From a virus, in the IMG/VR virus record IMGVR_UViG_3300040810_000755, positions 1 through 26,254 of that record: 26,254 nt of DNA. One strand, 5' to 3'. Positions 370 through 19,800 of this stretch are shown in pieces (the stretch's first letter is position 1; every line of letters starts with the position of its first letter). The notes beneath the pieces were generated by a model. That model was not told the origin of the DNA, searched no databases, and saw only the letters and a list, made by a program, of their open reading frames with translations. The translations under genes and the position numbers were made by a program.

Positions 370-732
370 ATGAAACGTTCAGAATTAGCAGAATATATCA
401 AAGAAACTATTGTAGATATTCTTTCAGAAGCATCAGCTGAAGATGTAGAAAACCAAGCTGAGTTAAATAAAGAACTTGAAAAAACAGTTGCTCTAAATAA
501 AGAACTTTCTGAAGATATTGATGACGAAGATGAAGCTGATAAATCAGCATCTAAAGCAGCTGGTAAAAAAGACAGCGTATCTACCTTAGCTCGTAAACTC
601 CAAGATGTTACTAAGGAAATGAAAACTACAGTTAACAAATGGAAAAAAGCTGAAGGTGAAGAAAAAGAAAGATTGTTAGCTCGTTTAAAAGAACTAACTA
701 AAATCAAGAAAGAACTTGAAGGACTTATTTAA
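370..732 (+). CDS. Small charged coiled-coil protein, unknown function
   Basis: 120 residues, starting with ATG 13 nt after a TATTTATAATAA element. The N-terminus (MKRSELAEYIKETIVDILSE) is an amphipathic helix of the type seen at the start of many small T4-like head-region proteins. Two Glu/Lys-rich heptad-like stretches follow (about residues 28-50 and 72-118), separated by an acidic and Ser/Ala/Lys linker (DIDDEDEADKSASKAAGKK). There is no membrane segment or recognisable catalytic motif. It lies two genes upstream of the large terminase, where a small terminase (gp16) might be expected. A coiled-coil core is compatible with gp16-like oligomers, but I see no DNA-binding motif and do not assign it. 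A scaffold accessory protein is the alternative. Confidence 0.7.
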   Translation: MKRSELAEYIKETIVDILSEASAEDVENQAELNKELEKTVALNKELSEDIDDEDEADKSASKAAGKKDSVSTLARKLQDVTKEMKTTVNKWKKAEGEEKERLLARLKELTKIKKELEGLI

Positions 733-2894: not shown

Positions 2895-4751
2895 ATGGCT
2901 GATACTAGCTTATTTAGAAGATTACAAAGATTATTCTCAACGGATGTAATTATCCGTAATGTAGGAGGTAACCAACTTAAAGTAATAGATTCAGATAAAA
3001 TTCAAACCTCAGGTGAATTTGCAACTAATGCTTTAATGAATCGTTTTCAGGGTGTTTATCAAAACCCTGCCTCAACCTCTTTATATGGTCAACAGTTTAA
3101 TCTTAATTACCAATACTTAAGAACTCAACTTTATTCAGATTACGATAATATGGATACAGATGCTATTATTGCATCTGCTCTTGATATTATTGCTGACGAA
3201 TGTACTCTTAAGAATGACATGGGTGAAGTACTCCAGATTAAATCATCGGACGAAGATATTCAAAAGATACTTTACAACTTATTTTACGATGTTTTAAACA
3301 TTGAGTTTAATCTTTGGTCTTGGACTCGTCAAATGTGTAAGTATGGTGATTTCTTCCTAAAACTAGAAATCTCAGAAAAATTTGGTGTTTATAATGTTAT
3401 CCCTTATTCAGCATATCATATTGAGCGTAAGGAAAATTTTGACCCTGAAAATCCTTCAAAAGTAATATTTGTATATAATCCTGAAGGTTTCTTCGGTGGT
3501 AATTCATCTGGTTATTACTATACTCCTAATCAAGATAATGCTAATAATATTACATTTGATAATTATGAGATAGCTCATTTTAGATTATTATCTGATATGA
3601 ACTATCTTCCTTATGGTAGAGCATATATCGAACCAGCTCGTAAATTATTTAAACAATACTCATTAATGGAGGATGCTATGTTAATTCATAGAATTGTACG
3701 TGCTCCTGAAAAACGTATTTTTAAAATTAATGTTGGTTCTATTCCACCAAATGAAGTAGAAAACTTCATGCAAAAAACTATTTCAACACTTAAACGTACT
3801 CCATATATGGATGAACAAACAGGTGAATATAACTTGAAATATAATATGCAAAACCTACTTGAAGATTTCTATCTACCAGTTAGAGGAAATGATCAAGCAA
3901 CCCAAATTGATACTACACCAGGTTTATCATATGATGGTATTCAAGATGTAGAATATTTAAGAGAAAAATTATTTGCTGCTCTTAAAGTACCAAAAGCGTT
4001 TATGGGTTATGATGAAAATCTTCAAGGTAAAGCTACGTTAGCAGCAGAAGATATTCGTTTTGGTCGTACAATTGACCGTATCCAACGTATTCTACTTTCA
4101 GAATTATATAAAATTGCTTTAGTCCACTTATATTCTCAGGGATATAGAGATGAACAAATGACTAATTTTGAGCTTAATTTAACTACTCCTTCTATTATCT
4201 ACGATCAAGAAAAGATTGCGTTAATGAAAGAAAAAGTAGATTTAGCGGCTCAAATGATGGAAAATAAAATGTTCCCTACAGATTGGATTTACGAAAATGT
4301 ATTCCACTTTAGTGAAGACCAATACGAAGAATACAGAGATCTTATTGTACAAGATCAAAAACGTAGATTCCGTTTATCTCAAATTGAAACTGAGGGTAAC
4401 GATCCACTTACAACAGGTCGTTCATATGGTACCCCACATGACTTAGCTTCATTATACGGTCAAGGTAGGATGGAAGAAGACCCAGGTAACGTTCCTGATG
4501 GATATAATGAAAAACAACCTTTAGGTCGTCCACAAGAAAAAGCATCAAATATTAATACTCAAGATAACGCTTTCGGTAGAGATCGTTTAGGTCGTAAAGA
4601 TATGAAAATAGATGATCAACCTAACTTTAACGAAAGTAAAACAGCTTACAGTAAAAATCGTTCCTTATTAGAGTCTATGAATAAAGAAGTTGTGTTTACG
4701 TCCGATAAACGTAAAGAATCGTTATTAGATGAAAAAAATATCAAAGAGTAA
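2895..4751 (+). CDS. 20: Portal vertex protein, T4 gp20-like
   Basis: 618 residues, longer than T4 gp20 (524). It forms the dodecameric ring at the unique capsid vertex through which gp17 packages DNA, and on which prohead assembly starts. Typical gp20 segments are visible: MDTDAIIASALDIIADE (about residues 85-102); PYGRAYIEPARKLFKQYSLM and the following basic IHRIVRAPEKRIFKI (about 239-275); and EYLREKLFAALKVPKAFMGY (about 352-371), next to the helix that lines the channel. The last ~120 residues are polar, low in hydrophobics and rich in Gly, Asn, Lys and Asp, ending SLLDEKNIKE. This is a probably flexible tail absent from T4. The start ATG has no Shine-Dalgarno sequence but is preceded by TATTTATAATAA. 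Confidence 0.95.
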   Translation: MADTSLFRRLQRLFSTDVIIRNVGGNQLKVIDSDKIQTSGEFATNALMNRFQGVYQNPASTSLYGQQFNLNYQYLRTQLYSDYDNMDTDAIIASALDIIADECTLKNDMGEVLQIKSSDEDIQKILYNLFYDVLNIEFNLWSWTRQMCKYGDFFLKLEISEKFGVYNVIPYSAYHIERKENFDPENPSKVIFVYNPEGFFGGNSSGYYYTPNQDNANNITFDNYEIAHFRLLSDMNYLPYGRAYIEPARKLFKQYSLMEDAMLIHRIVRAPEKRIFKINVGSIPPNEVENFMQKTISTLKRTPYMDEQTGEYNLKYNMQNLLEDFYLPVRGNDQATQIDTTPGLSYDGIQDVEYLREKLFAALKVPKAFMGYDENLQGKATLAAEDIRFGRTIDRIQRILLSELYKIALVHLYSQGYRDEQMTNFELNLTTPSIIYDQEKIALMKEKVDLAAQMMENKMFPTDWIYENVFHFSEDQYEEYRDLIVQDQKRRFRLSQIETEGNDPLTTGRSYGTPHDLASLYGQGRMEEDPGNVPDGYNEKQPLGRPQEKASNINTQDNAFGRDRLGRKDMKIDDQPNFNESKTAYSKNRSLLESMNKEVVFTSDKRKESLLDEKNIKE

Positions 4752-4787: not shown

Positions 4788-5645
4788 ATGAACATTAAAC
4801 ATTCAAAGTATAAAAATACTGGTATTCTTTTTGAATTACTTGTACGCCAAGTAACGGCCGATACTCTTAATGGGGTAGAATCTGCTGCTATTAAACTTAT
4901 TCAAAAATATTTTGTTAAGTCTGAATTAGGGAAAGAATATAAATTGTACGAAGCTTTAACTAAAAGTACTTCTTTAACTGAAAGTAAAGCTAATGTATTA
5001 ATTCAAACATTATTAGAATCTTCTAAAAAACTTAATAGAGGATCCCTTAAAAGGGAAAAATATAATCTTATTAATGAGATTAAAACCAACTATAATTTAG
5101 AAGAATTCTTTAAAACTAAACTTCCACATTATAAAGTACATGCTGCTTTTTATATGTTATCCGAAGTACAAAATGCTAAAGCTTTAGTAAATACTGATAT
5201 TATTGTAAATAATAAAATGACATTACTAGAGCATCTTTCTTCTAATGAAATTAAAGAAGCAAAAGTAGAAGCGGAAGTATTACAAGAATTCCAATCATAC
5301 GATAAAGATACTCGTATGCTTACCTATAGAATTTTAATGGAAAAATTCAATGGTAAATATGATGGATTACATAACAGCCAAAAAGAAGTACTTAGACAAT
5401 ATGTTAATTCAGTTGACTCAACCCCAGTATTAAAAGAATTTTACAATGCTGAAGTAGAAAAAATTAAAATTCAATTAGCTGAATTAAATTCTAAAGTAGA
5501 CGATAAAGCTGTTCAAATTAAAATTAATGAAGTAGTTAACTTAATTGAAGAATTAGATAAAACTTCTAAGGTAACCTCAGATAACATTGTAAATATTCTA
5601 CAATATCTTGAATTAGTAGAAGAGCTTAAATCAGCACATGGCTAA
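4788..5645 (+). CDS. Conserved head-region protein of T4-like phages, unknown function
   Basis: 285 residues, almost entirely helical in appearance (Leu, Lys, Glu and Asn rich). There is no signal peptide, membrane segment or catalytic motif. The N-terminus, MNIKHSKYKNTGILFELLVR, is a pattern I associate with a protein found between portal and prohead protease in distant T4-like phages; that is memory of a pattern and not a search. In T4 this interval holds the prohead core proteins gp67 and gp68, which are much shorter. A role in the prohead core or portal assembly is therefore suggested by position only. The C-terminal ~90 residues (about 190-285) contain heptad-like helices. Its last 8 nt overlap the next start (ATGGCTAA). 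Confidence 0.75.
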   Translation: MNIKHSKYKNTGILFELLVRQVTADTLNGVESAAIKLIQKYFVKSELGKEYKLYEALTKSTSLTESKANVLIQTLLESSKKLNRGSLKREKYNLINEIKTNYNLEEFFKTKLPHYKVHAAFYMLSEVQNAKALVNTDIIVNNKMTLLEHLSSNEIKEAKVEAEVLQEFQSYDKDTRMLTYRILMEKFNGKYDGLHNSQKEVLRQYVNSVDSTPVLKEFYNAEVEKIKIQLAELNSKVDDKAVQIKINEVVNLIEELDKTSKVTSDNIVNILQYLELVEELKSAHG

Positions 5646-6115: not shown

Positions 6116-6361
6116 ATGTATAAATATAAATTAAATCTAAAGGAAAGAGACGAAAGTCGTGCCTCATATCAAGAAAAACGTATTGCTGCGTTTTCTGAAA
6201 TTGAAAAACGTCTTAATGCTCTTTACCCTAAAATAGATAAAGCTAAAGATGAAACAATAGCTTATTATAGGGAAAAACCACACTCTTATGGTGTAGTATA
6301 TCCTACAGATTTACTTTTAGATTATATTAAAGATATTGAAGATTTATTAAAACACGAATAA
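6116..6361 (+). CDS. Small helical protein, unknown function
   Basis: 81 residues from ATG at 6116, one base after the previous TAA. An upstream in-frame TTG at 6086 would add ten residues lying wholly inside the preceding gene, so I prefer the ATG. The protein begins MYKYKLNLKERDESRASYQE, is mostly charged helix with a Tyr-rich middle (IAYYREKPHSYGVVYPTD), and ends in another helix (LLLDYIKDIEDLLKHE). No motif is recognised. It is coupled to the next gene by a TAATG overlap. Its place between portal and protease suggests a head-assembly accessory, comparable in size to T4 gp67 (80 aa), but without convincing sequence similarity. Confidence 0.7.
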   Translation: MYKYKLNLKERDESRASYQEKRIAAFSEIEKRLNALYPKIDKAKDETIAYYREKPHSYGVVYPTDLLLDYIKDIEDLLKHE

Positions 6362-7419
6362 TGAAAACTCTACAAGAACAATACCAATTAATTAAAGAAG
6401 GTAAGGGTCGTAAAGATCTTTTTATGAAACAAGCCTTAAGACAGTTTCCTCAATACGTAACTAAGTTTAATACGTTTGAAGAAACTACCTCTATTTTAAA
6501 AGGTAAACAAATCCTATCTGAAGGTATTGGTGGGGTTGCTACCGGTCGTCCTAATCCATTTACTAACTGGGCTAAATTTTTAGCTGAAGAAGCTAAAGCA
6601 GTAGAAAAAAATCCTACTAAAGAAGTTACCGATATGGAAACTAGAGATTTTGACTACAAGGACGATAAAAATATTGATAATCTTTATGGTGAAGCCTTCT
6701 TACAAGGTTATTACACCGAAATGAAAGACCCAGCTAACGCTGACAAATCAGTAGCTGAATTAAAAGAAATTGTAGCTAAAAATTTAGCTAAAGATAGAAC
6801 ATATTATACTACTGAAGCTCAATTCGGTATTAAAGGTATTGGATATACTGAAGATGTTCCTGGTTTAGGTCCTACCAAAGAAGTAAAGGGTAAATACGCT
6901 TCATCTGGAATGGAAGAAGTTAAATTAAAAGAAGGTAAAATGGCTAACCTAAAAGACTTATTAAATGAAGCAATCGCAGGATATACAGAAGTACGTCCTA
7001 TAGGAATGACTAACGAAAACGCAAGAACTGATGCCGAAGAAGAAGGCTATTTAGACGGTATGCGTGATGAAAAAGAAGATCTTAAAGCAAAAGCTAAAGA
7101 TAAAAAGAAAAAAGTTAGAAAAGAAACTGTAGATTCTAAATTAGCTGAAATTGAAAAAGCTGGTAAACTTACTACTTTAGAGGCTCAAATCGAGGCTTTA
7201 GATGAAGCAATTGAAACTAAAAACCAAAGAATTTCAATGGTATCAGAAGATGAAAATCTTTCTGAGTTAGTAGATAAGAAAAAAATGAAAGAAATGCAAC
7301 GTGAAGTTAAAGATCTTGAAAAGAAAAAAGCTAAGATGGAATCACTTTACGAAAAAATGTGTGGTAAAAAATACGTTAAAACCGAAGTTGTAGACGAAGC
7401 TGACGAAATGGATTTCTAA
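6361..7419 (+). CDS. Prohead-core-like protein with C-terminal coiled coil, unknown function
   Basis: 352 residues. The N-terminal half (about 1-190) is mixed, with an F/Y-rich acidic stretch around 95-125 (ETRDFDYKDDKNIDNLYGEA). From about residue 193 it is highly charged. At 221-240 it has ARTDAEEEGYLDGMRDEKED, nearly identical to a segment of the scaffold protein encoded two genes downstream. The remainder is a long Lys/Glu coiled coil (about 241-335) with Leu-spaced heptads, ending in an acidic tail (VVDEADEMDF). Several Leu-x-Glu or Ile-x-Glu sites (for example LNEAIAG near 201) match the cleavage preference known for T4 gp21. With the shared segment and the protease gene one base downstream, an internal core or scaffold role is likely. 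No enzymatic motif is seen. Confidence 0.78.
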   Translation: MKTLQEQYQLIKEGKGRKDLFMKQALRQFPQYVTKFNTFEETTSILKGKQILSEGIGGVATGRPNPFTNWAKFLAEEAKAVEKNPTKEVTDMETRDFDYKDDKNIDNLYGEAFLQGYYTEMKDPANADKSVAELKEIVAKNLAKDRTYYTTEAQFGIKGIGYTEDVPGLGPTKEVKGKYASSGMEEVKLKEGKMANLKDLLNEAIAGYTEVRPIGMTNENARTDAEEEGYLDGMRDEKEDLKAKAKDKKKKVRKETVDSKLAEIEKAGKLTTLEAQIEALDEAIETKNQRISMVSEDENLSELVDKKKMKEMQREVKDLEKKKAKMESLYEKMCGKKYVKTEVVDEADEMDF

Positions 7420-7420
7420 A

Positions 7421-8029
7421 ATGAAAAAAGTCCTTATTGAAACCCAATTATTTAAGCCTGTAGGTACTTTACTTGCCGAAGGTAAACTTTCTGATCGTGG
7501 GAATCCTATGGTAGAAGGTATTTTAGCTACTGCCGAAGTAAAAAACGGTAATGGTAGATACTATGCTAAAGATTTATGGGAAAGAGAAATCGATAAGTAT
7601 ATGACATCTGTTAAAGAAAACAGAGCATTAGGTGAACTAGACCACCCAGAATCCCAAGTAATTAACTTAAAAAACGTTTCACACAATATTAAAGATATGT
7701 GGTGGGACGGAGACAATGTTATAGGTAAGATTGAGATCTTACCTACTCCATCAGGTAACATCCTCAAAGCGCTTATTGAAAGTGGTGTAACTGTTGGAGT
7801 ATCTTCTAGAGGAATGGGTTCCTTAGAACAAAATGGTAATGTAATGGAAGTGCAAGATGACTTCGAATTACTATGTTGGGATTTTGTTTCAACACCTTCT
7901 AACCCTGGTTCGTTTATGGAAGTAGTTACTGAAGGTAAAACCGTACAACAATTAAACAAGTACAAAGAAGTAAATAATATTGTAAGAGAAATCTTATGTG
8001 CTAATACTTGTACTTGCTATTTAGACTAA
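7421..8029 (+). CDS. 21: Prohead core maturation protease, T4 gp21-like serine protease
   Basis: 202 residues. It cleaves scaffold and capsid proteins during head maturation. The protein has the gp21/herpesvirus-assemblin-type layout. GNGRYYAKDLWEREI (44-58) is the typical N-terminal strand-turn-helix. ELDHPES (72-78) holds the catalytic His75. VGVSSRGMG (125-133) holds the nucleophilic serine (Ser128 or Ser129). DFELLCWDFVSTPSNPG (147-163) completes the core. Size is close to T4 gp21 (212 aa). The last ten residues contain three cysteines (C193, C197, C199), unusual in this Cys-poor set. The start is one base after the preceding stop; the stop is 28 nt before an intrinsic terminator, so the gene closes the operon that runs from the terminase region. 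Confidence 0.93.
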   Translation: MKKVLIETQLFKPVGTLLAEGKLSDRGNPMVEGILATAEVKNGNGRYYAKDLWEREIDKYMTSVKENRALGELDHPESQVINLKNVSHNIKDMWWDGDNVIGKIEILPTPSGNILKALIESGVTVGVSSRGMGSLEQNGNVMEVQDDFELLCWDFVSTPSNPGSFMEVVTEGKTVQQLNKYKEVNNIVREILCANTCTCYLD

Positions 8030-8031
8030 TA

Positions 8032-8047
8032 CCTCTATTTTTAGAGG
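8032..8047 (+). other. Small perfect hairpin before the terminator
   Basis: CCTCTA (8032-8037) and TAGAGG (8042-8047) form a 6-bp stem with a TTTT loop directly after the protease stop. It has no T-run of its own and may stabilise the 3' end of the upstream transcript next to the stronger terminator at 8058-8088. Confidence 0.4.
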
Positions 8048-8057
8048 CGCTACCCAG

Positions 8058-8088
8058 AAAAACGCTCTTCGAAAGGAGGGCGTTTTTT
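8058..8088 (+). terminator. Intrinsic terminator after the protease gene
   Basis: The stem ACGCTCTTC (8062-8070) pairs with GGAGGGCGT (8075-8083) around a GAAA loop, with two G-U pairs. It is flanked by A5 on the left and T6 on the right (8083-8088). The A-run/T-run symmetry means it could work in both directions. It separates the terminase-protease operon from the scaffold-capsid unit. Confidence 0.85.
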
Positions 8089-8101
8089 ATATCTCTCTAT
8101 A

Positions 8102-8189
8102 TATGTATTAATATAAAGTGAACAATATACTATGTTCTATATAGTATTTCACTAATTAATAATTCTTATTACGGTTCTTAATAACCGTA
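8102..8189 (+). promoter_or_regulatory. Scaffold-gene leader: promoter-like element plus two dyads
   Basis: This 184-nt intergenic region is the longest non-coding stretch in the window. After the terminator it has TATGTATTAATA (8102-8113), a one-base variant of the TATTTATAATAA family. Next is a dyad, ATACTAT/ATAGTAT (8127-8133 and 8141-8147, 7-nt loop), and then a second, TACGGTT/AACCGTA (8170-8176 and 8183-8189, 6-nt loop), ending 24 nt before the ATG. It may be a structured 5' leader or operator controlling the most highly expressed unit. Function is inferred. Confidence 0.42.
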
Positions 8190-8213
8190 CTCCACAAACT
8201 AAATTTTGAGGTA

Positions 8214-9470
8214 ATGGCAAACAGAGATCTGCTTAAAGAAGCAATCGCTGACGCAAAAGCACTTAAAGAAACTGCTATTGCGAACGCAAAAGCTGCTCTA
8301 GAAGAAGCTTTCGAACCAAGACTTAAGTCTATGCTTTCAGCTAAACTTGAGGAAATGGAAAAGGAAGAAGAACTAGAAGAAGCTGAAATGACCGAAGCTA
8401 AAAAAGAGTATAAGGACGATGATCGTAAAGATGGAGGTGAAAGTAAAGAAACTAAGCGTACTGAAAAAATGAAGTACGGTAAAGACTTAGCTGAAGCTGA
8501 AGACATGGACGAAGAAATGGACTTAGATGAAATTTTAGCTGAACTCGAAGAAGGTGAAGACTTATCTGAAGATGCTAGAACGGATGCCGAAGAAGAAGGC
8601 TACGAAGACGGCATGGAAGATGAGAAAGAGGACATGGAAGACGATGAAGAAGATGAAGAAATTGATCTTGAAGAAATGACTGAAGATGACCTTAAATCTT
8701 TTATCGAGGACGTAATCGCTGATATGGTTACATCTGGAGAATTAGAAGCAGGCGAGGAATTCGAAGCCGAAGACGAAGATGAAATCGACGTTGAGGATGA
8801 CGAAGAAATCGATGTAGAAGATGACACAGAAGTAGACGTTGAGGTTAACGAAGAAAAAGAAGAAGTTGACGAAGCAAAAGAAGAAATCGACGAAGCGAAA
8901 GAAGAAGTTGAAGAAGGCTACGATAAGGAAGACATGGACGAAGGTATCATGGACAAATTAAAGAAAGCTTACAACGACAAAGAATTACTTTCTAAAATCG
9001 TTACTGTTGATGGTGAAAAAGTATCTATGAAAGACCTTTTATCATTAGCATCTTCAGGAGCTACTGCTGGTATGGCTAAGTCTGGTTCAGGCAAAACTTC
9101 ATCAGTAGGCGAAGCTAAAGAAGAAATGGATGAAATGAAAAAAGAACTTGACGAGTTAAGATCTGAACTTCACGAAACTAATCTTCTTAACGCTAAACTT
9201 CTTTACACAAATAAAATCTTTAGAGCTAAAAACTTAAAAGAAGCTCAAAAGGTTAAAGTTTTAGAAGCGTTTGACAAAGCGTCAAATGTATCTGAAGTAA
9301 AACTTATTTTTGAAACTTTAAACGAAGGTATGGTAGCTAATACTACTAAAACTGTAGTTAAAGAAAACTTAGGTTCAGCTTCAAAAGCAGCTGGTGTTGC
9401 TCAAAAAGCTCCTATTATGGAAATTGATCCACAGGTAGCTAGATGGCAAAAATTAGCTGGTATTAAATAA
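8214..9470 (+). CDS. 22: Prohead core scaffold protein, T4 gp22-like
   Basis: 418 residues, extremely acidic. It forms the internal core on which the capsid is built, and is then degraded by gp21. The N-terminus is helical (residues 1-60). Residues 95-245 are dominated by Glu and Asp, including ARTDAEEEGYEDGMEDEKED (121-140) and tandem acidic repeats of the type DEIDVEDDEE (about 185-210). The C-terminal third has the gp22 signature: a heptad helix, then LLNAKLLYTNKIFRAKNL (about 322-339), EAQKVKVLEAFDKASNVSEV and KLIFETLNE, ending ARWQKLAGIK. T4 gp22 is 269 aa, so this version is enlarged, mainly by the acidic middle. It lies 23 nt upstream of the capsid gene. GAGG ends 2 nt before the ATG, too close to be a typical Shine-Dalgarno. 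Confidence 0.9.
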   Translation: MANRDLLKEAIADAKALKETAIANAKAALEEAFEPRLKSMLSAKLEEMEKEEELEEAEMTEAKKEYKDDDRKDGGESKETKRTEKMKYGKDLAEAEDMDEEMDLDEILAELEEGEDLSEDARTDAEEEGYEDGMEDEKEDMEDDEEDEEIDLEEMTEDDLKSFIEDVIADMVTSGELEAGEEFEAEDEDEIDVEDDEEIDVEDDTEVDVEVNEEKEEVDEAKEEIDEAKEEVEEGYDKEDMDEGIMDKLKKAYNDKELLSKIVTVDGEKVSMKDLLSLASSGATAGMAKSGSGKTSSVGEAKEEMDEMKKELDELRSELHETNLLNAKLLYTNKIFRAKNLKEAQKVKVLEAFDKASNVSEVKLIFETLNEGMVANTTKTVVKENLGSASKAAGVAQKAPIMEIDPQVARWQKLAGIK

Positions 9471-9493: not shown

Positions 9494-11131
9494 ATGTCAC
9501 AAATTCAATCACTTTTAGAAAGCTCAGCTCAAGGTTGGAAAAACCTTCAGTCTGATGCTGCTAAATTGGCTAACAAGTGGGAAAAGACAGGTTTATTAGA
9601 AGGTCTTAAAAACGAGACTGATAAAAATAATATGTCAATGATCCTTGAAAACCAAGCTAAGCAATTAGTAACTGAGATCTCTGCTGACGGTGGCGCTCCT
9701 GCTGCTGCTGGTGCTGCTAGCTTCTCAGCTAACGTAGGTACAGGTGCTCAATGGGCTGGTATCGCTTTACCTTTAGTACGTAAGGTATTTGGTCAAATCG
9801 CTGCTAAAGAATTCGTTTCTGTACAGCCAATGAACCTTCCTTCAGGTCTAGTATTCTACTTAGACTTCCAGTACGGTTCAACTAAAAACAGCGACACTGG
9901 TACTTCACCTGAAACCTTTACTCAAGGTAACTCACTTTACGGTGGTTCAGGTACTCCTTTCTCTACTGACGGTTCAGCCGGTCAAGGTCTTTATGGTCCT
10001 GGTAGATTTGGATACTCTATTCCTTCTCAATCAAACGGTGATGTAGTATTTACTGTAGCATCAGCTTCTTGGAAAGATGTAGGTTTCGATTCAGACCTTT
10101 CAGCTTCTGTTGCTGCCAACGAAATCGTTGAAGTTACTGTTGCTAACTTAACTACTCAATTAGTACAACCTGATGTTGAATCAGTAAGAGGTTGGGCTTT
10201 CGTTTCTGCTTCTGCTGTTGCTTCTCAGGTTAACGCTTACAACACTGTTTCTGGTACTACTGGTACTTTCTACGTATCTGCTTCTGAAGGTGCTATCGCT
10301 GCTGGTTCGACTGCAACTTTATACTACGGTCGTCAACCTGAAGATAACACTTTAGGTGATTTCGAGAACACATCTGCTATTCCTGAAATCAACATCGGTA
10401 TGAGATCTGAAGCAATCGTTGCTAAGACTCGTAAGTTAAAGGCTGTTTGGACTCCTGAGTTCGCTCAAGATCTTAACGCTTACCAATCTCTTGACGCTGA
10501 AGCTGAAGTAACTAACATCATGAGCGAATACATCTCTTTAGAGATCGATTCAGAAATCTTAGCGATGTTAATCCAAGATGCTTCTGCTGGTACAGAGTAC
10601 TGGTCAGCTCAAAACAACCGTTTCTACGTTTCTGGTGATGACTTCACTAACGACACTAACGGATACTTTAACACTCAAGGCCAATGGTTCCAAACTCTTG
10701 GTACTAAAGTAAACAAGTTAAGCAACGAAATCCACAGATTAACTCTTCGTGGTGGTGCTAACTTCATGGTAGTTTCTCCAACTGTATCTACTATCTTAGA
10801 ATCTATTCCTGGATTCGCTGCTGATAACTCAGATGCAGAAAAAATGGAGTACGCTTTCGGTATCCAAAAAGCTGGTCAATTCAATGGTCGTTACAAAGTA
10901 TACAAAAACCCATACATGAAAGAAAACACTGTACTATTAGGTTACAGAGGTTCTCAATTCTTAGAGTCTGGTGCTGTATTCGCTCCTTACGTACCGTTAA
11001 TCATGACTCCTCTTGTATACGATCCTGATACGTTCGTACCAAGAAAAGGTCTATTAACACGCTACGCTAAGAAGATGTTACGTCCTGAATTCTACGGTAA
11101 GATCTACATTTCTGGTCTAAACACTCTTTAA
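9494..11131 (+). CDS. 23: Major capsid protein, T4 gp23-like
   Basis: 545 residues (T4 gp23 is 521). HK97-fold shell protein. Recognisable gp23 blocks are: WAGIALPLVRKVFGQIAAKE with FVSVQPMNLPSG (about 87-118); KTRKLKAVWTPEFAQDLNAY followed by the DAEAEVTNIMSEYISLEID helix (about 310-350); NFMVVSPTV; and KVYKNPYMKENTVLLGYRG with the C-terminal APYVPLIMTPL block. The Lys-rich helical N-terminal 60 residues look like the removable delta domain. LVTE (58-61) is a plausible gp21 cut site close to T4's position 65. Residues about 180-280 are Ser/Thr/Ala/Val-rich and probably form the insertion domain. Codons for Asn, Phe and Tyr are mostly C-ending, unlike its neighbours, as expected for the most abundant protein. 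It is followed by a perfect terminator. Confidence 0.96.
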   Translation: MSQIQSLLESSAQGWKNLQSDAAKLANKWEKTGLLEGLKNETDKNNMSMILENQAKQLVTEISADGGAPAAAGAASFSANVGTGAQWAGIALPLVRKVFGQIAAKEFVSVQPMNLPSGLVFYLDFQYGSTKNSDTGTSPETFTQGNSLYGGSGTPFSTDGSAGQGLYGPGRFGYSIPSQSNGDVVFTVASASWKDVGFDSDLSASVAANEIVEVTVANLTTQLVQPDVESVRGWAFVSASAVASQVNAYNTVSGTTGTFYVSASEGAIAAGSTATLYYGRQPEDNTLGDFENTSAIPEINIGMRSEAIVAKTRKLKAVWTPEFAQDLNAYQSLDAEAEVTNIMSEYISLEIDSEILAMLIQDASAGTEYWSAQNNRFYVSGDDFTNDTNGYFNTQGQWFQTLGTKVNKLSNEIHRLTLRGGANFMVVSPTVSTILESIPGFAADNSDAEKMEYAFGIQKAGQFNGRYKVYKNPYMKENTVLLGYRGSQFLESGAVFAPYVPLIMTPLVYDPDTFVPRKGLLTRYAKKMLRPEFYGKIYISGLNTL

Positions 11132-11218: not shown

Positions 11219-11950
11219 ATGGCTTCAAATCATCATAATGATGAGGTCTTCCGTCAAAAGAGAAGGCCTAAAAACCCAATTAAATTTAAAATTTCACTAA
11301 ATGACGAACAAAAAGAAGCAAAAGCAAAAATTCTAGAAAACACAGTTACACTATTAGCCGGTTCGGCAGGTTCAGGAAAGACATTTTTAGCATGTCAAAT
11401 AGCACTTGAAAAACTATTCATGAAAGAGTGCGAAAAAATTATAATTACACGACCTACGGTGAGTAAGGAGGAAATCGGTTTTTTACCGGGTGACCTCCGC
11501 GAAAAAATGGACCCATGGGTTCAACCCATATATCAAAATATGTATGCGTTATATGATAAAGTTAAAATCGAATCTCTTATACAAGAGGGAAAAATCGAAA
11601 TCGTTCCTGTTAGTTTTATGCGTGGTAGAACTTTTCTTGATAGCGTAGTTATCGTAGACGAAGCTCAAAACGTTACACACGAACAAATGGAAATGATTGT
11701 AACCCGTTTAGGTATCCGTTCTAAAATGATAGTATGTGGTGACGATCATCAAGTAGATTTAAAATCTAAAAAAGACTCTGGATTTAGATTCTTATATTCA
11801 GCAGCACGTAAAGTAAAAAATATGTGTGCTATTTCTCTTAAAACTAACCATAGAGATCCAATTGTAGAAGACTTAATTAGTTTATACGAGGAAGCAGAAG
11901 AAAATGGAATGAATTTAGGTACTGCTGGTTCTAGTGGAAGACGTAAATAA
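11219..11950 (+). CDS. phoH: PhoH-like P-loop ATPase
   Basis: 243 residues. The PhoH family is an RNA-helicase-like ATPase common in marine and T4-like phages; the phage role is unsettled. Visible motifs are Walker A GSAGSGKT (48-55), IIITRPTVSKEEIGFLPGDL (about 74-93), the family's best-conserved block, Walker B VVIVDEAQN (143-151) and IVCGDDHQVDLKSKKDSGF (171-189). A basic, disordered N-terminus (residues 1-24) includes RQKRRPKNP. Length equals the core PhoH domain without extra domains. It is the first gene after the capsid terminator and lies among structural genes, 36 nt before the neck gene. Co-transcription with virion genes is likely, but I infer no virion role. The start ATG at 11219 lacks a Shine-Dalgarno. 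Confidence 0.95.
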   Translation: MASNHHNDEVFRQKRRPKNPIKFKISLNDEQKEAKAKILENTVTLLAGSAGSGKTFLACQIALEKLFMKECEKIIITRPTVSKEEIGFLPGDLREKMDPWVQPIYQNMYALYDKVKIESLIQEGKIEIVPVSFMRGRTFLDSVVIVDEAQNVTHEQMEMIVTRLGIRSKMIVCGDDHQVDLKSKKDSGFRFLYSAARKVKNMCAISLKTNHRDPIVEDLISLYEEAEENGMNLGTAGSSGRRK

Positions 11951-13165: not shown

Positions 13166-13743
13166 TGGCATTATACGGAGAGGCAAGAGATATAAGCTTT
13201 TTTAGACACATTAATCGTGAGTTAATGGCTAACATTATTTCACAACAATGTGTTTACTATAAATTTGACTTAGGTGAAACTAAAGTTAACATTTATGGTG
13301 AGGCATCAGGTGGAAAATATTTCCACCCTCCTGTATTATTAAATTGTTTAGTTGAAAGATCTAGCCAAGAATTCCCAGAAAGTGATTTAGGTATTAACTT
13401 TAATTGGAATATTACTTTTAAATTTTTAAGAGACGATTTATTAGATCGTAATAAAGATTTTAACAAGGATTGGCAATTTGCTAACACATATGGAGCTAAT
13501 TTAGTCCCTGAAGTAGGTGATATTATCATGTATAACCAAGGTTACTACGAAGTAGATAGTACAAACGCTAACCAATACTTTGTAGGTAAAAACCCATCAT
13601 ACGATTATAAAGATGATAATGGTAATAACGTATTAAATGAAACTGATTTAGCTAATTTTGGTTCAAGTATTTCAATTATTTGTAACACACATTACGTACC
13701 AGCTGATAAATTAGCTTTATCACCATTTAAAGAAAGAATGTAA
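13165..13743 (+). CDS. 14: Neck protein, probable T4 gp14-like head closure component
   Basis: 192 residues (T4 gp14 is 256). Assignment rests on gene order directly after gp13 and on a gp14-like core. An early segment reads SQQCVYYKFD (about 27-36), comparable to the gp14 'ECYYVPRE' region. The block VPEVGDIIMYNQGYYEVDST (about 114-133) corresponds to gp14's 'EGDLIYFP...FEIN' strand pair. The C-terminus ends with SPFKERM, close in style to gp14's terminal SPFDDD. The protein is soluble and mixed alpha/beta, with no membrane segment. It would bind gp13 and the tail terminator. Similarity is patchy, so a structure comparison would be needed for certainty. Overlaps TAATG at both ends imply tight coupling with neighbours. 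Confidence 0.68.
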   Translation: MALYGEARDISFFRHINRELMANIISQQCVYYKFDLGETKVNIYGEASGGKYFHPPVLLNCLVERSSQEFPESDLGINFNWNITFKFLRDDLLDRNKDFNKDWQFANTYGANLVPEVGDIIMYNQGYYEVDSTNANQYFVGKNPSYDYKDDNGNNVLNETDLANFGSSISIICNTHYVPADKLALSPFKERM

Positions 13744-14738
13744 TGGCTAAACAAGGAAGAAAACCAGTACCAAAAACTCAAAAAGAGATTAGTGTAGGAT
13801 TACAAACACCTTATGATCCTAAGGTAGGTAATCCAAACAATCCTGATGAGTTTTCCATTCATCCTGACATTAACCAGGCTGGTATTCCTTTTAACCGTTC
13901 AGAAAAATTATCTCAAAAAGGAGATACTTACAAACAATTTTCAGTAGGCTTAGAAGATATAGATGAATCTATATTTTACTATTTTAACAATGTAATTAAA
14001 CCATTTGTTTACCAAAACGACGAGAGAATTCCTGTACCCATTATTTACGGTAATCCTGAAAGATGGAATAATTTCCAAAAAGATGGGTATTATAGAGATA
14101 AAAATGGCTCTATTATGATGCCTATTATTGTAATTAAAAGAGATTCAATTACTAAAAATAGAAATATCGCTAATAAATTAGATGCTAACTTTCCTAATTT
14201 ATACACTTCTTGGCAAAAACAATACAACCCAAAAAATTTCTATTCTAACTTTAATGTATTAAATAATAGAATACAAACTAAACAATTTGTTGCTAACGTT
14301 GTTCCTGATTATGTAACTTTACAATATAGTGTTATTGTTCAAACCTATTATATGGATCAACTAAATAAAATAGTTGAAGCTATAAATTACGCATCAGATG
14401 CATATTGGGGTGACCCAGAACGATTTAAATTTAAAGCAATGATTGATGGTTTTACAAATGCTAATCAACTTGCAATGGGTCAAGAAAGAGTTGTTAGGAG
14501 TAATTTTACTATCAATATGTATGGGTATATAGTACCGGATGTAATACAAAAGGATTTATCTTCTGTTAAAAAATATAATTCAAAATCTAAAATTATATTC
14601 TCAATGGAAACCACTTCAAATCCTGAAGTATTTGATCCTAACCCTCAAGTTTCACCTCCTGTAAATGGAGCTGGAGCTGCCAGAGATAGACTATCAGAAA
14701 ATGTTAACACTCGTAAAAGAATAAGTACAGATGAGTAA
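13743..14738 (+). CDS. 15: Tail completion/sheath stabiliser, T4 gp15-like
   Basis: 331 residues (T4 gp15 is 272). gp15 forms the ring ending the tail that binds the neck. The gp15 layout is readable. IPVPIIYGNPERWNNFQKDG (about 96-115) matches the 'I-x-V-P-I-x-Y-x-x-x-E' opening strand. MMPIIVIKRDS follows. Then comes YSVIVQTYYMDQLNKIVEAI (about 195-214), as in gp15's 'YELSIFTRYEDDMFQIVEQI'. The next block is FKFKAMIDGFTNANQ, and the domain closes with RSNFTINMYGYIVPDV (about 253-268). The N-terminal ~60 residues are Pro/Lys/Asn-rich and probably flexible. The C-terminal ~55 are polar with PNPQVSPPVNGAGAARDR. Placement right after gp13 and gp14 agrees with T4, where 13-14-15 are also consecutive. 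Its end overlaps the next ORF by 8 nt. Confidence 0.83.
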   Translation: MAKQGRKPVPKTQKEISVGLQTPYDPKVGNPNNPDEFSIHPDINQAGIPFNRSEKLSQKGDTYKQFSVGLEDIDESIFYYFNNVIKPFVYQNDERIPVPIIYGNPERWNNFQKDGYYRDKNGSIMMPIIVIKRDSITKNRNIANKLDANFPNLYTSWQKQYNPKNFYSNFNVLNNRIQTKQFVANVVPDYVTLQYSVIVQTYYMDQLNKIVEAINYASDAYWGDPERFKFKAMIDGFTNANQLAMGQERVVRSNFTINMYGYIVPDVIQKDLSSVKKYNSKSKIIFSMETTSNPEVFDPNPQVSPPVNGAGAARDRLSENVNTRKRISTDE

Positions 14739-15077: not shown

Positions 15078-16760
15078 GTGGCTCAAATTAATATTGCAAA
15101 CACAGGCACCTCAGGCATAGAAACCCCACAATCAGGGGTTGTTGCTGTCTTCTCTAATAGTGCCGACAACGGTAAATTATATTATAGATTTTCAGATGGT
15201 TCATATGCCCCTGTAGATACAGGAGGTACTGGAGGTGGCTCTGAAACTTCAGGTACTTCGGGTACTGGAGGAGGTGGAGGTACTGGTACTTCAGGTACTT
15301 CAGGAGATGGTACTTCAGGTACATCAGGAGCAGACGGCTCATCAGGTACTTCAGGAACTGGTTCAGGAGATTCTGGTACTTCAGGTACATCAGGAGCAGA
15401 CGGCTCATCAGGTACTTCAGGAACAGGTTCAGGAGATTCAGGCACTTCTGGAACATCAGGTGAAGCAGGCTCATCAGGTACATCAGGTACTAATGGCGCT
15501 GGAGGTGGAGATGGTACTTCAGGTACAGATGGTTCTTCAGGTACAGATGGAGATTCAGGCACTTCAGGTACAGATGGAGATTCAGGCACTTCAGGAACAG
15601 CAGGTCCAGACGGTAATTCAGGTACCTCAGGTACAAACGGTGATTCAGGTACTTCAGGTACAGATGGAGCTTCAGGTACAGCAGGTACTTCAGGTAATGG
15701 AACTTCAGGTACATCAGGAGATGGTACATCTGGAACCTCAGGAGATGGTACTTCTGGTACCTCAGGTACACAAGGTGAAACAGGTACAGGCGGTACATCA
15801 GGTACCCAAGGTGAAACAGGTACAGGCGGTACATCAGGTTCTTCTGGTACCTCAGGTGATGGTACTTCTGGTACATCAGGTACACAAGGTGAAACAGGTA
15901 CAGGCGGTACTTCAGGTACACAAGGTGAAACAGGTACAGGCGGTACTTCAGGCTCTTCAGGTACTTCAGGAGACGGAACCTCCGGTACTTCAGGTGCAGC
16001 AGGTACCTCAGGTACAGGTGGAGCAGGCACATCAGGTACTTCAGGAGCAGCAGGTACCTCAGGTACAGGTGGAGCAGGCACATCAGGTACTTCAGGTGAA
16101 GGTACCTCTGGAACTTCAGGTGCAGCTGGTGCAGCCGGTGACGATGGCACTTCAGGTACTTCAGGAGCTGGAGGTGGTTCTATTTCAGTAACTGATGGAA
16201 CAACAACTGTTAGTACTGTAACTACAATTGATTTCACTTCAGGAGCTACTGTAACTGATGGTGGTAGTGGTACAGCCGAAGTAGCAATCTCCGGAGGTGG
16301 AGGTGGTGGGGGTACTCATTACTGTTTTTATGTAGAATTTGCTGATGGTCCTACCGTTACTAATACTTTAGGTAGTGTTACTCAAATTACAGCTGGAAAC
16401 TTTACTACAGACTCAGTAACAATTACATTAACTGCTACCTCAAATGAAGTAAACATTGAATTTGATAATGAAACTCAACCTCCAACTTCAGCAATAGGCC
16501 ATTTTTATAATGTAACAGCTAATACCTACTCAGTAGTAGCCTTAAATTATAAATCAGATGGTTATATGGAAGCTTCAGGTATGACTTTTAGTACATCAGG
16601 TGCTAATGTAATTGAAACTGATTATATTGATACTGTAAGTAATGCTAGTTTTGCATTTGATGTAACTCCTGGTACATTTGGGGGTGGTCAGGGAGCTATT
16701 CCTACACCACCATTTACCACATTATTAACCCATGCTTATATAATGGTTACTTTCCCATAA
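15078..16760 (+). CDS. Collagen-like Gly-Thr-Ser repeat virion protein, probable fibre or head decoration
   Basis: 560 residues from GTG at 15078. Three regions are seen. Residues 1-52 are a short domain with PQSGVVAVFSNSADNGKLYY then RFSDGSYAPV, the 'S-G-x-V-A-x-x...D-G-K-L-Y' pattern found at the head of many phage structural proteins. Residues about 53-370 are G-x-y repeats (GTSGTSG, GADGSSGTSG, GTQGETGTGG) with no proline-rich collagen signature. Residues 371-560 begin SISVTDGTTTVSTVTTIDFT, a segment common in phage fibre proteins. They then pass through a Gly-run (about 404-413) to a beta-rich Cys-containing C-terminal domain that may trimerise or bind ligand. Transcription ends at the terminator 26 nt downstream. 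Long open frames in other frames and on the other strand are by-products of the codon pattern. Confidence 0.85.
   Translation: MAQINIANTGTSGIETPQSGVVAVFSNSADNGKLYYRFSDGSYAPVDTGGTGGGSETSGTSGTGGGGGTGTSGTSGDGTSGTSGADGSSGTSGTGSGDSGTSGTSGADGSSGTSGTGSGDSGTSGTSGEAGSSGTSGTNGAGGGDGTSGTDGSSGTDGDSGTSGTDGDSGTSGTAGPDGNSGTSGTNGDSGTSGTDGASGTAGTSGNGTSGTSGDGTSGTSGDGTSGTSGTQGETGTGGTSGTQGETGTGGTSGSSGTSGDGTSGTSGTQGETGTGGTSGTQGETGTGGTSGSSGTSGDGTSGTSGAAGTSGTGGAGTSGTSGAAGTSGTGGAGTSGTSGEGTSGTSGAAGAAGDDGTSGTSGAGGGSISVTDGTTTVSTVTTIDFTSGATVTDGGSGTAEVAISGGGGGGGTHYCFYVEFADGPTVTNTLGSVTQITAGNFTTDSVTITLTATSNEVNIEFDNETQPPTSAIGHFYNVTANTYSVVALNYKSDGYMEASGMTFSTSGANVIETDYIDTVSNASFAFDVTPGTFGGGQGAIPTPPFTTLLTHAYIMVTFP
15240..16180 (+). 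repeat. Coding tandem repeats in the 560-aa protein
   Basis: The region is built from nine-base G-x-y units with larger recent duplications. A 66-nt unit appears twice (GCAGAC marks at 15330 and 15396). A 36-nt unit (codons for TQGETGTGG...) starts at 15771 and 15807, and the pair is repeated 114 nt later at 15885 and 15921. A 51-nt unit starts at 15996 and 16047, with 50 bases identical between copies. The near-identity at DNA level suggests recent slippage or recombination, unlike the older repeats of the downstream gene. Confidence 0.85.
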
Positions 16761-16893: not shown

Positions 16894-19800
16894 ATGGCGG
16901 AATATAATCCCGAATCACCAAATTTAACTTTATATGGGTTTTTTGCAGACCCTTCAAATAAAGATAAATATGGAATAAATGATGAAACTGGTTTAGGTCC
17001 TAATGGATCTGATGCCTATATTTCATATGATGTAGTAATCAATACTATATCAGCTCAAAACATAGGTGACGCTAGTGTTCGAAAATCCTCAGGATTAGCT
17101 GTAGGAGGTTCATACAATGGACAAGATATTAAAGTTGGTGATTGGGTTGCTACTCGAGATGGATTAAGAGTTTGGCAAATTACTGAAATTACTCAAAAAG
17201 GAGATACTTACGTTTCATGTTCTATTGAAGATGTAGGTATGAATATGGCCCGCACTAGAAGTGATAGATCTAATAACCCTGTAGGAGGTGCTGGTGTTGT
17301 AGTATTTGAGGTTAATGATAATAATGTCCCATTATTTGCAAGTAATCAAACAGACCAAATTACCGTTAATAATGGTTTAGACCTTATTAATACTTATTTT
17401 GCAACCTACGAACCCTTCCAACGATTTACCTTCTACCCAGATATTACAGGTAGTATAGAAATTGGAGATTTAGTAACTATTACGGGTTCAGTATCAGGTA
17501 CTCCTGTAACCCCTTATAGATTAATCCCAGCACAAGATGGAGATAGAGTAATAGGTGTTGTTTCTGATATTTTTGGAGGTAATAATGTTAATGTACGCCC
17601 TTATAACAAAATTATAACTAATTTTTCTAAGCCTGAATTATTAACAGAGGGAATAGTTAGTTCAACTTGGTATTTAAGTGGTAGTGATGGAGCTTATACT
17701 ACAAGTAGTGATTTTGGAGATCCTAAATTTTTCCAATTAAGTAATGCTATCGGGACTTCAACTACTGGTAGTTATGATGGGCCTTCGTTAGATGAAACTA
17801 ATTACAATTTAATAATAAATAATATTGAAGTAATCCCTGTAGATGCAGGAGGTAGTACTTTAAATATAGGTCAAATTACTTCTTCAATTAATGATTATAG
17901 TGGTTCTACTTTTGTAACTGCTAGCATTAATGAACAAGGAGGAGTAGCTACTATTACAAGTGGAGACTCAGCCGGTATTGGAGGTGAAGATGGTAGTTAT
18001 GGGTATAGCTCTGAACCTATCCAATTATTTGCAGTATTAGATGGTAGTACTGGTACCCCTGGATCTTACCCCTCAGCTCCAGGTAAATTTGCTATTACTG
18101 CTAGTGGGTATGAAATGGTTATTCATCCAACTCAATCTAGTGATACCGTATATGATAGTTTTGGGGGTTATCCTGGGGCTATGGCTGTGGATATTAAAGC
18201 AGCCATTGATTCAGCTTCCGCAGCTACTGGTGCAGATTTAACTGTAACGGTTGTAGATGATAATACTTTAACTCTCACAGTAAATGATGGTACTAATTTA
18301 GAAATTGAAAAAATCTCTAATGATTCATTTGTTAGAGCCTTAGTTGGTCTTAGTTCAGGTACTGCTTTACCTACAGGTCAATTTGTTGCACCATCTTTAG
18401 AACAATATTTAGCTTTAGAAAGAACAGACGGAGGTGATATTTTATTACAAGGTACTTGGACATCAAGACCTGAAGCCACCGGATTAACCAGTGTATCAGG
18501 TACCCCACCTTATCTCTTAATGGTTGAAGCTGCTGGTGGTGGTAGCGATTTAGAAATAGTATACACAGGTTCAATAGTAGAAACTGAAACAACTTCTATT
18601 CATTTCACAGGTTCAGGAGTTGTAGTTGAAGCATCAGGTTCAAATGGTGTTTTAGTAACTATAGGAGATACCAGCACATCTGGTACTTCAGGTACAGCTG
18701 CAGGTTCAGGTACATCAGGTACAGATGGTAGCTCAGGTACTTCAGGTAATGGTACTGATGGTACTTCAGGTACTACAGGTACAGCAGGTTCTTCAGGTAC
18801 AGCTGGTACTAGTGATACTTCAGGTACTTCAGGAGCATCTTCCGGTACTTCAGGTACAAATGGTAGCAACGGTACAACAGGTACAGCTGGGGATTCAGGT
18901 ACCTCAGGCACAAGTGACACCTCAGGTACAACAGGTTCAGCCGGTACTTCAGGTACTTCGGGTGATGCTGCTAGTGCTACTTCAGGTACAAATGGCGTAA
19001 GTGGTACTTCAGGTACTTCAGGTGATAGTTCAACATCAGGAACGGCTGGTTCTTCAGGAACAAGTGGTTCAGATGGTTCTTCTGGTACAACTGGTACTTC
19101 AGGATCATCAGGCACAAGTGATACTTCAGGTACTTCAGGTACAGCTGGTAGTTCAGGTACAACAGGTAATGACGGAACTTCTGGTACAGTAGGTGAATCT
19201 GGTACATCAGGTACCTCAGATACCTCAGGTACTACAGGTTCAGCAGGTACATCAGGTACAAGCGGTGACAATGAAAGCGCTACTTCAGGTACAAATGGAG
19301 AATCAGGTACTTCTGGAACATCAGGTGAAAGTTCAACTTCAGGAACTGCAGGTAGCTCAGGAACTTCTGGTACAACAGGTGATGATGGTACAAGCGGTAC
19401 AGCAGGTGAATCAGGTACTTCTGGTACATCTGAAACAAGTGGTACAGCAGGTAATAATGGAACTTCAGGCACAACAGGTGAAGACGGTACTTCAGGTACA
19501 GTAGGTGAATCTGGTACATCAGGTACTTCGGATACAAGCGGTACTACTGGTAGCGCAGGTACTTCAGGTACTTCAGGCGATAATGAATCAGCAACTTCAG
19601 GTACAAACGGAGAATCCGGTACTTCAGGTACCTCAGGAGATTCAAGTACTTCAGGTACAGCAGGTTCTTCAGGAACTTCAGGTACAACAGGTGAAGATGG
19701 AACCTCAGGTACAGCTGGTGATTCAGGAACATCAGGTACAAGCGAAACTTCAGGTACCGCAGGTAATGATGGAACCTCAGGTACAACAGGAGACGATGGT

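Follow-up and report, generated by a model that had tools for sequence, protein, structure and literature searches.

A portable cassette of about 24 residues in the linkers of putative prohead-core proteins of T4-like phages

The prohead core of phage T4 is composed of gp21, gp22, gp67, gp68, the internal proteins and Alt (PMC9958956, PMC9026906), and its protease gp21 cuts after L/I-x-E (PMC9026906). The unrelated core proteins IPI, IPII, IPIII and Alt have in common a short portable peptide linked with gp21, the capsid targeting sequence (CTS) (PMC9026906). On the whole, very little is known about the construction of scaffolding cores in phages. Here, a stretch of 26,254 bases from the IMG/VR virus record IMGVR_UViG_3300040810_000755, called the window from here on, was analyzed. 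It possesses a T4-type head module in the order terminase, portal, three open reading frames (ORFs) of unknown function, a 352-residue protein designated A, protease, scaffold, capsid and PhoH. An earlier note on this DNA had pointed to a segment of 20 residues shared by A and the scaffold. This segment is interpreted here, with a probability of about one half, as the core of a portable ~24-residue cassette, named C1, which sits in flexible acidic linkers of T4-like prohead-core proteins from aquatic metagenomes and is likely an interaction module. As a pattern, C1 as a portable head-core linker cassette is well supported; the segment is more general than first noticed, and the function of the cassette is proposed from sequence.

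The locus resembles the gp67, gp68 and gp22 region of T4 in its order of portal, small core proteins, protease, scaffold and capsid and in its excess of L/I-x-E. C1 is comparable to the T4 CTS as a short portable peptide common to otherwise unrelated proteins of the presumed head core, and the N-termini of A and of another group of carriers, the NFDxKKYL proteins described below, resemble the CTS. However, the CTS is N-terminal, has ~10 residues and is cut off, whereas C1 is internal, has ~24 residues, occurs in multiple copies and is present in the scaffold itself. Searches of phage collections found no C1-like cassette in T4.

Recurrence and conservation of the shared segment

Direct comparison confirmed that ARTDAEEEGYLDGMRDEKED, residues 221-240 of the 352-residue A (nt 7021-7080), and ARTDAEEEGYEDGMEDEKED, residues 121-140 of the 418-residue scaffold (nt 8574-8633), match at 18 of 20 positions. 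The position given earlier for the copy in A was correct, while that for the scaffold copy (8577-8636) was 3 nt too far. Similarity between A and the scaffold stops at the edges of the segment, and the protease gene lying between them (7421-8029) is not involved, as had been said.

Related loci (151) were gathered from IMG/VR with A and the protease as references for similarity, and a degenerate DNA pattern encoding DAEEEGYxDG supplied more, so that copy totals are lower bounds; because loci were picked by similarity and pattern, cassette frequencies describe the chosen sample and not nature. The shared 20-mer was found to be the core of a ~24-residue unit with the consensus E[DN]ARTDAEEEGYxDGMxDEKED[ML]x. 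At least 257 distinct copies of C1 were found, mostly on IMG/VR contigs, with at least 200 in scaffolds, at least 34 in A homologues and at least 23 elsewhere. The copy number ranges from 0 to 3 in the scaffold and from 0 to 2 in A, and among the matches listed many scaffolds carry tandem copies 72 nt apart. In the window, the full unit is ENARTDAEEEGYLDGMRDEKEDLK in A (7015..7086, +) and EDARTDAEEEGYEDGMEDEKEDME in the scaffold (8568..8639, +), each with the 20-mer inside. Residues T4, D5, A6, E7, E9, G10, D13, G14, D17 and D21 of C1 are invariant or nearly so in the copies listed.

The synonymous identity of C1 between genomes is 0.56-0.67, and the expectation from codon usage is ~0.60. Between the A and scaffold copies within one genome it is 0.576 (0.61 expected), no higher than the 0.592 of copies from random genomes. 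With amino acids near fixed and synonymous codons resembling random draws, selection acts on the C1 peptide, and what is conserved is the peptide and not its DNA. The DNA of the two window copies had been called similar too; 48 of 60 bases do match, and two nonsynonymous codons (L/E and R/E) account for 5 of the 12 differences, but there is no excess over what follows from codon usage and the conserved amino acids.

Both copies lie in linkers of low confidence (pLDDT, the AlphaFold confidence score, <50), which are predicted to be unstructured by models of the monomers made from shallow alignments. The linker of A, residues 214-252 (7000..7116, +), is variable and forms a slot that, in alignments of relatives, is filled either by C1 or by other segments. 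The scaffold linker, residues 114-148 (8553..8657, +), varies in copy number and is the first of two regions holding 0-3 cassettes in relatives. Packing of a helix through small residues at every fourth position (A2, A6, G10, G14) was considered but is not supported by the AlphaFold monomers, which show low-confidence coil.

C1 gave no match in PDB, a search of 50,697 phage records yielded none that was convincing, and against PHROGs it reached only families of unknown function, at E 0.03 or worse. The only Pfam hit was Yae1_N (PF09811), a GxxxG-type helical motif with weak likeness around GYxDG (E 0.082); it remained below threshold, with 13.1 bits against a curated cut-off of 27.5, and AlphaFold gave no confident helix at C1. 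DAEEEGY was absent from the open-access papers searched, as were six more peptides, drawn from the C3 family and from the CTS-like tag described below.

Carriers of C1 and exchange of linker segments

The gene for A (6361..7419, +) lies between portal and protease, directly upstream of the gp21-like protease, which is the place of gp68 in T4. The protease (7421..8029, +) was assigned by Peptidase_S77 (Pfam, 7.6e-32) and PHROG 207, head maturation protease (1.4e-60). No family match was obtained in the Pfam and PHROG scan for either A or the 418-residue protein considered as scaffold (8214..9470, +). The latter shows gp22-type traits, as its gene is situated between protease and Gp23 at the gp22 position and its product is very acidic and rich in the cleavage motif LxE[AGS]; hhalign against T4 gp22 gave a probability of 6%.

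A of the window contains 5 LxE[AGS] sites against 0.9 expected. Enrichment of [LI]xE[AGS] over shuffles was 2.8x in A (163 homologues), 3.5x in the scaffold, 3.4x in the capsid and 3.9x in the protease; portal (1.2x), terminase (1.1x), PhoH (0.6x) and two downstream genes (0.2x and 0.1x) were not enriched. The family of a 285-residue protein in the portal-protease interval (4788..5645, +), a further candidate core protein, reached 3.35x, as high as the scaffold. The same count behaved as expected in T4, with 8 sites against 1.3 for gp22, 4 against 1.1 for gp23 and 1 against 1.07 for the portal; gp68 gave only 1 against 0.40. Since another downstream gene, at 13743-14738, likewise scored high (5.7x, with 1.8 sites per protein and two in the protein of the window), the enrichment is a pointer and not proof.

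The N-terminal peptide of A, MKTLQEQYQLIKE (6361..6399, +), which ends in I-K-E before G, resembles the T4 capsid targeting sequence of IPII and IPIII, MKTYQEFIAE followed by A, and 139 of 182 A homologues have [LI]xE[AGS] among their first 22 residues. The suggestion that A is a second core component gained from this CTS-like N-terminus, from gene position and cleavage-motif enrichment, and from a second pair of cassettes common with scaffolds (see below); on such features A is quite probably a prohead core protein. Among cultured phages, the closest relative found for A comes from Flavobacterium phage immuto; identity is 28% along the N-terminal 205 residues, and immuto has the gene order of the window. 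A Bacteroidota host for the window virus is a guess.

C1 sits in frame in at least four unrelated protein contexts. The third carrier comprises proteins starting with M[DN]NFD[YL]KKYLxEG, a CTS-like N-terminus, found ~14 kb from A in one contig and also in loci L199, L260 and L308, often along with cassettes C3 or C3b. This N-terminal peptide heads several proteins that otherwise differ, as in the case of the T4 CTS, and the strict [LI]xE[AGS] motif is present in the first 20 residues in 14 of 37 NFDxKKYL proteins. The fourth carrier is a protein of 177-263 residues encoded directly upstream of a putative capsid gene. Where seen, an XkdF-type protease (PF14550) precedes it and a portal of the PF04860 type lies further along, and by this context it appears to be the scaffold-position protein of phages not of T4 type. 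Within 22 long contigs, C1 was confined to A, the scaffold and one NFDxKKYL-type protein. A scan of 84,980 species genomes found it in four contigs, three with a scaffold gene and one with a partial NFDxKKYL-like protein.

As a separate observation, the N-terminal peptide M[DN]NFD[LYF]xKYLxEGxLxxE recurs on many unlike proteins (L053, L128, L137, L260, L267, L303, L308, L355-L386), and it looks like a capsid targeting sequence of these phages.

Gain and loss were counted on a FastTree protease tree of 117 relatives, in which many inner branches are weak. The minimum number of changes was 9 for A, 16 for presence in the scaffold and 36 for scaffold copy number. Absence of the segment from both proteins in close relatives, which the earlier note had taken to indicate chance or recent transfer, was partly found; the pattern is one of a conserved cassette being gained and lost repeatedly, and not one of chance.

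Exchange within the slot was seen between the A genes of L014 and L029, which are 96% identical overall and ~99% identical apart from the slot. In 60-nt blocks away from the slot and its edges identity is 95-100%, and inside the slot there is no similarity. The replacement in L029 includes a stretch, MDEGVMDK, matching scaffold genes at 28 of 30 nt, and is joined at GATAAGC.TAAA, which is common to A and scaffold genes. Other occupants were also identified: L007 carries C1 in the A slot and L023 carries C3 (KQGYNDELDDSLGMKHGSKEQDMAQRRADSENMEKADGDRKYSGD). Comparison of A of L235 with the scaffolds of other phages shows ~90% identity for C3; C3b is likewise common to A and scaffolds, and C2 (RPDYPDVDGDGDKEESMEKALKDKKKK) was seen in A alone. 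As the slots hold one or another, C1, C2, C3 and C3b are alternatives for filling sites of one kind.

Two further observations concern such cassettes. Small basic phage proteins of ~85 residues (MRNDFGTRPYK..., L313-L348, e.g. L316:2914-3171) consist largely of a C3-type cassette, KKQGYDDRLDESLGARHGKKSQSYKARRKESEGMEKAMGRRK. The immuto scaffold (L432:6583-7824), annotated as 'DNA polymerase phi-like protein', has its own duplicated ~53-residue element (EGFEQWLDSVSAQMDKFGKNNPTIQAIEKAV...GHGMTKGHK), another sign of linkers accepting repeated cassettes.

Possible roles of C1

In the proposed mechanism, A and the scaffold would assemble inside the prohead as core proteins, and the gp21-like protease would probably cut both at many L/I-x-E sites before DNA packaging. 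C1 would enter, leave and multiply as a unit alongside at least two other cassette types, with linker segments swapped by recombination, as seen in part in L029, and selection on the peptide would keep it nearly unchanged while codons drift, as the synonymous sites show. Its most likely role would be that of a short linear module for interaction, used in several copies. While the prohead assembles, it would make weak contacts between core proteins or to a partner that they share, and it would be destroyed with the core at maturation.

Several observations weigh against this reading. Of the 117 relatives, which have the same protease, 32 lack C1 in both A and the scaffold, so C1 is not essential to the assembly system. 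That the scaffold carries C1 in 21 of the 22 genomes with C1 in A against 63 of the 95 others speaks for the reading, but this association is not significant when phylogeny is counted (median p 0.5, 6 independent pairs). A shows no detectable sequence similarity to T4 gp68 (hhalign probability 0.1%) and is also longer (352 against 141 residues), and due to the hhalign result it is not filed as a gp68 homologue. C3 relatives are present in proteins without known head link (of ~85 and of more than 1000 residues, the latter including one size of 1325), so this kind of cassette is not confined to heads. Lastly, codon choice within C1 is biased by position, which is some constraint at the nucleic-acid level unexplained by a pure peptide model. 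G10 is encoded by GGC in 75% of copies listed from all carriers (7-14% background); with one copy per host cluster the value is still high, at 62% for clusters of 80% identity and 44% for 65%. Similarly, A6 avoids GCA, R3 favours CGT and D17 favours GAC. These codons favour a small nested hairpin with the stem A6-G10. The bias could be a relic of DNA ancestry, an effect on translation or a weak structure.

Such a structure is central to another explanation, in which C1 is a small coding element, selfish or palindromic; it would insert in frame where linkers tolerate it, and nucleic-acid structure would be part of what maintains it. The palindromic elements of Rickettsia and Wolbachia are short in-frame units in unrelated proteins with some tendency to form hairpins, and C1 resembles them in both respects. 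Besides the codon bias by position, folding is stronger in native copies than in recodings, with a mean of -8.8 against -5.6 kcal/mol for 65 representatives and their synonymous recodings (p 7e-9), and the effect is smaller in control segments (mean fold z -0.6 against -1.5 for C1; -4.5 and -2.0 for the scaffold and A copies of the window). Yet no covariation beyond positional bias was detected, as permuting codons within positions keeps the pairing, and RNAalifold found no consensus structure in C1 copies. The stems have only 3-5 bp, synonymous sites are otherwise saturated, and C1 is not scattered in the long contigs. C1 further differs from the Rickettsia-like elements in its ~72 nt, its few head-type carriers in the contigs examined, its conservation at protein level and its lack of a proven palindrome, and such an origin is considered improbable. 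About as improbable is a docking site recruiting the prohead protease or binding the capsid shell, as the earlier note had proposed. Here, the carriers are predicted protease substrates, and of the scaffold C1 copies listed, 143 of 199 (72%, against 8-21% background) follow an [LI]xE, so the protease could release C1; the following residue is D or N and not A/G/S as in the site count. However, the copy in A has no [LI]xE before the cassette, the relatives lacking C1 in both proteins keep the same protease and capsid, and C1 also occurs beside a protease of the unrelated XkdF type and a capsid candidate that is not Gp23. The idea was thus not upheld, and with two unrelated proteases and capsids alongside C1, the protease is an unlikely partner. 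A partner among core proteins or a common host factor fits better and may be the one contacted.

As an inert acidic spacer, C1 would have to provide no more than linker length, charge and flexibility, and its sequence would spread by hitch-hiking in recombination. This would agree with the predicted disorder of C1 linkers and with the alternation of C1 in one slot with unrelated segments or nothing. But the near-invariance of T4, D5, G10, Y11, D13, G14 and D17 of C1 in at least 257 copies, with scrambled synonymous sites, would not be a product of spacer-only selection; these residues argue for a specific contact, and the spacer remains an unlikely account, if less so than the docking site. 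Recent copying between A and scaffold in the window genome, also raised earlier, or homogenisation by gene conversion would find an argument in the 48 matching bases and in the relative with a scaffold-like piece in its A slot. It is contradicted for the window pair by the saturation of synonymous sites, so neither process explains the likeness of the two copies, and its probability is very small. Chance likeness of two acidic low-complexity regions, both rich in E, D and K, is negligible. Composition-preserving shuffles of the two proteins (300) gave 7-11 identities in the best 20-residue window against 18 observed, the real proteins reach only 9/20 elsewhere with the motif masked, and hundreds of further copies of the motif were found, which refutes it.

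A wider version of the interaction-module reading is speculative and rather doubtful, though less so than the alternatives above. In this version, head-core proteins would share an exchangeable set of cassettes (C1, C3/C3b and C2) that serves as a portable code for assembly. The cassettes would move among scaffolds of T4-like phages, companion core proteins, proteins with a CTS tag and the scaffolds of unrelated HK97-type phages whose protease is different, and C1 would also have a signal at the nucleic-acid level. Recurring in putative core proteins and unrelated scaffold systems, C1 gives a direct handle which may be mutated, counted and used as bait. Exchange of cassettes in disordered linkers is a mode of evolution of assembly proteins, and the cassettes offer a way of recognising head-core proteins among unannotated genes of uncultured phages.

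Other features of the window

The head module begins with terminase (1294-2868) and portal protein Gp20 (2895..4751, +; Pfam 3.7e-72). Downstream of the scaffold, the major capsid protein Gp23 (9494..11131, +; Pfam 2.3e-74) is followed by PhoH (11219-11950). A promoter and terminator scan of the region gave nothing above chance. A 3120-residue open frame at 16894-26253 (+) runs off the contig and consists mostly of G/T/S repeats (GTSGTSG...); a 2182-residue ORF at 18600-25148 (-) is its mechanical shadow. A second G/T/S-repeat protein is situated at 15078-16760. A 120-residue ORF at 370-732 (+) begins with MKRSELAEYIKETIVDILSE followed by A, which places an L-x-E site before A close to its N-terminus, and it is possibly another head-targeted protein.

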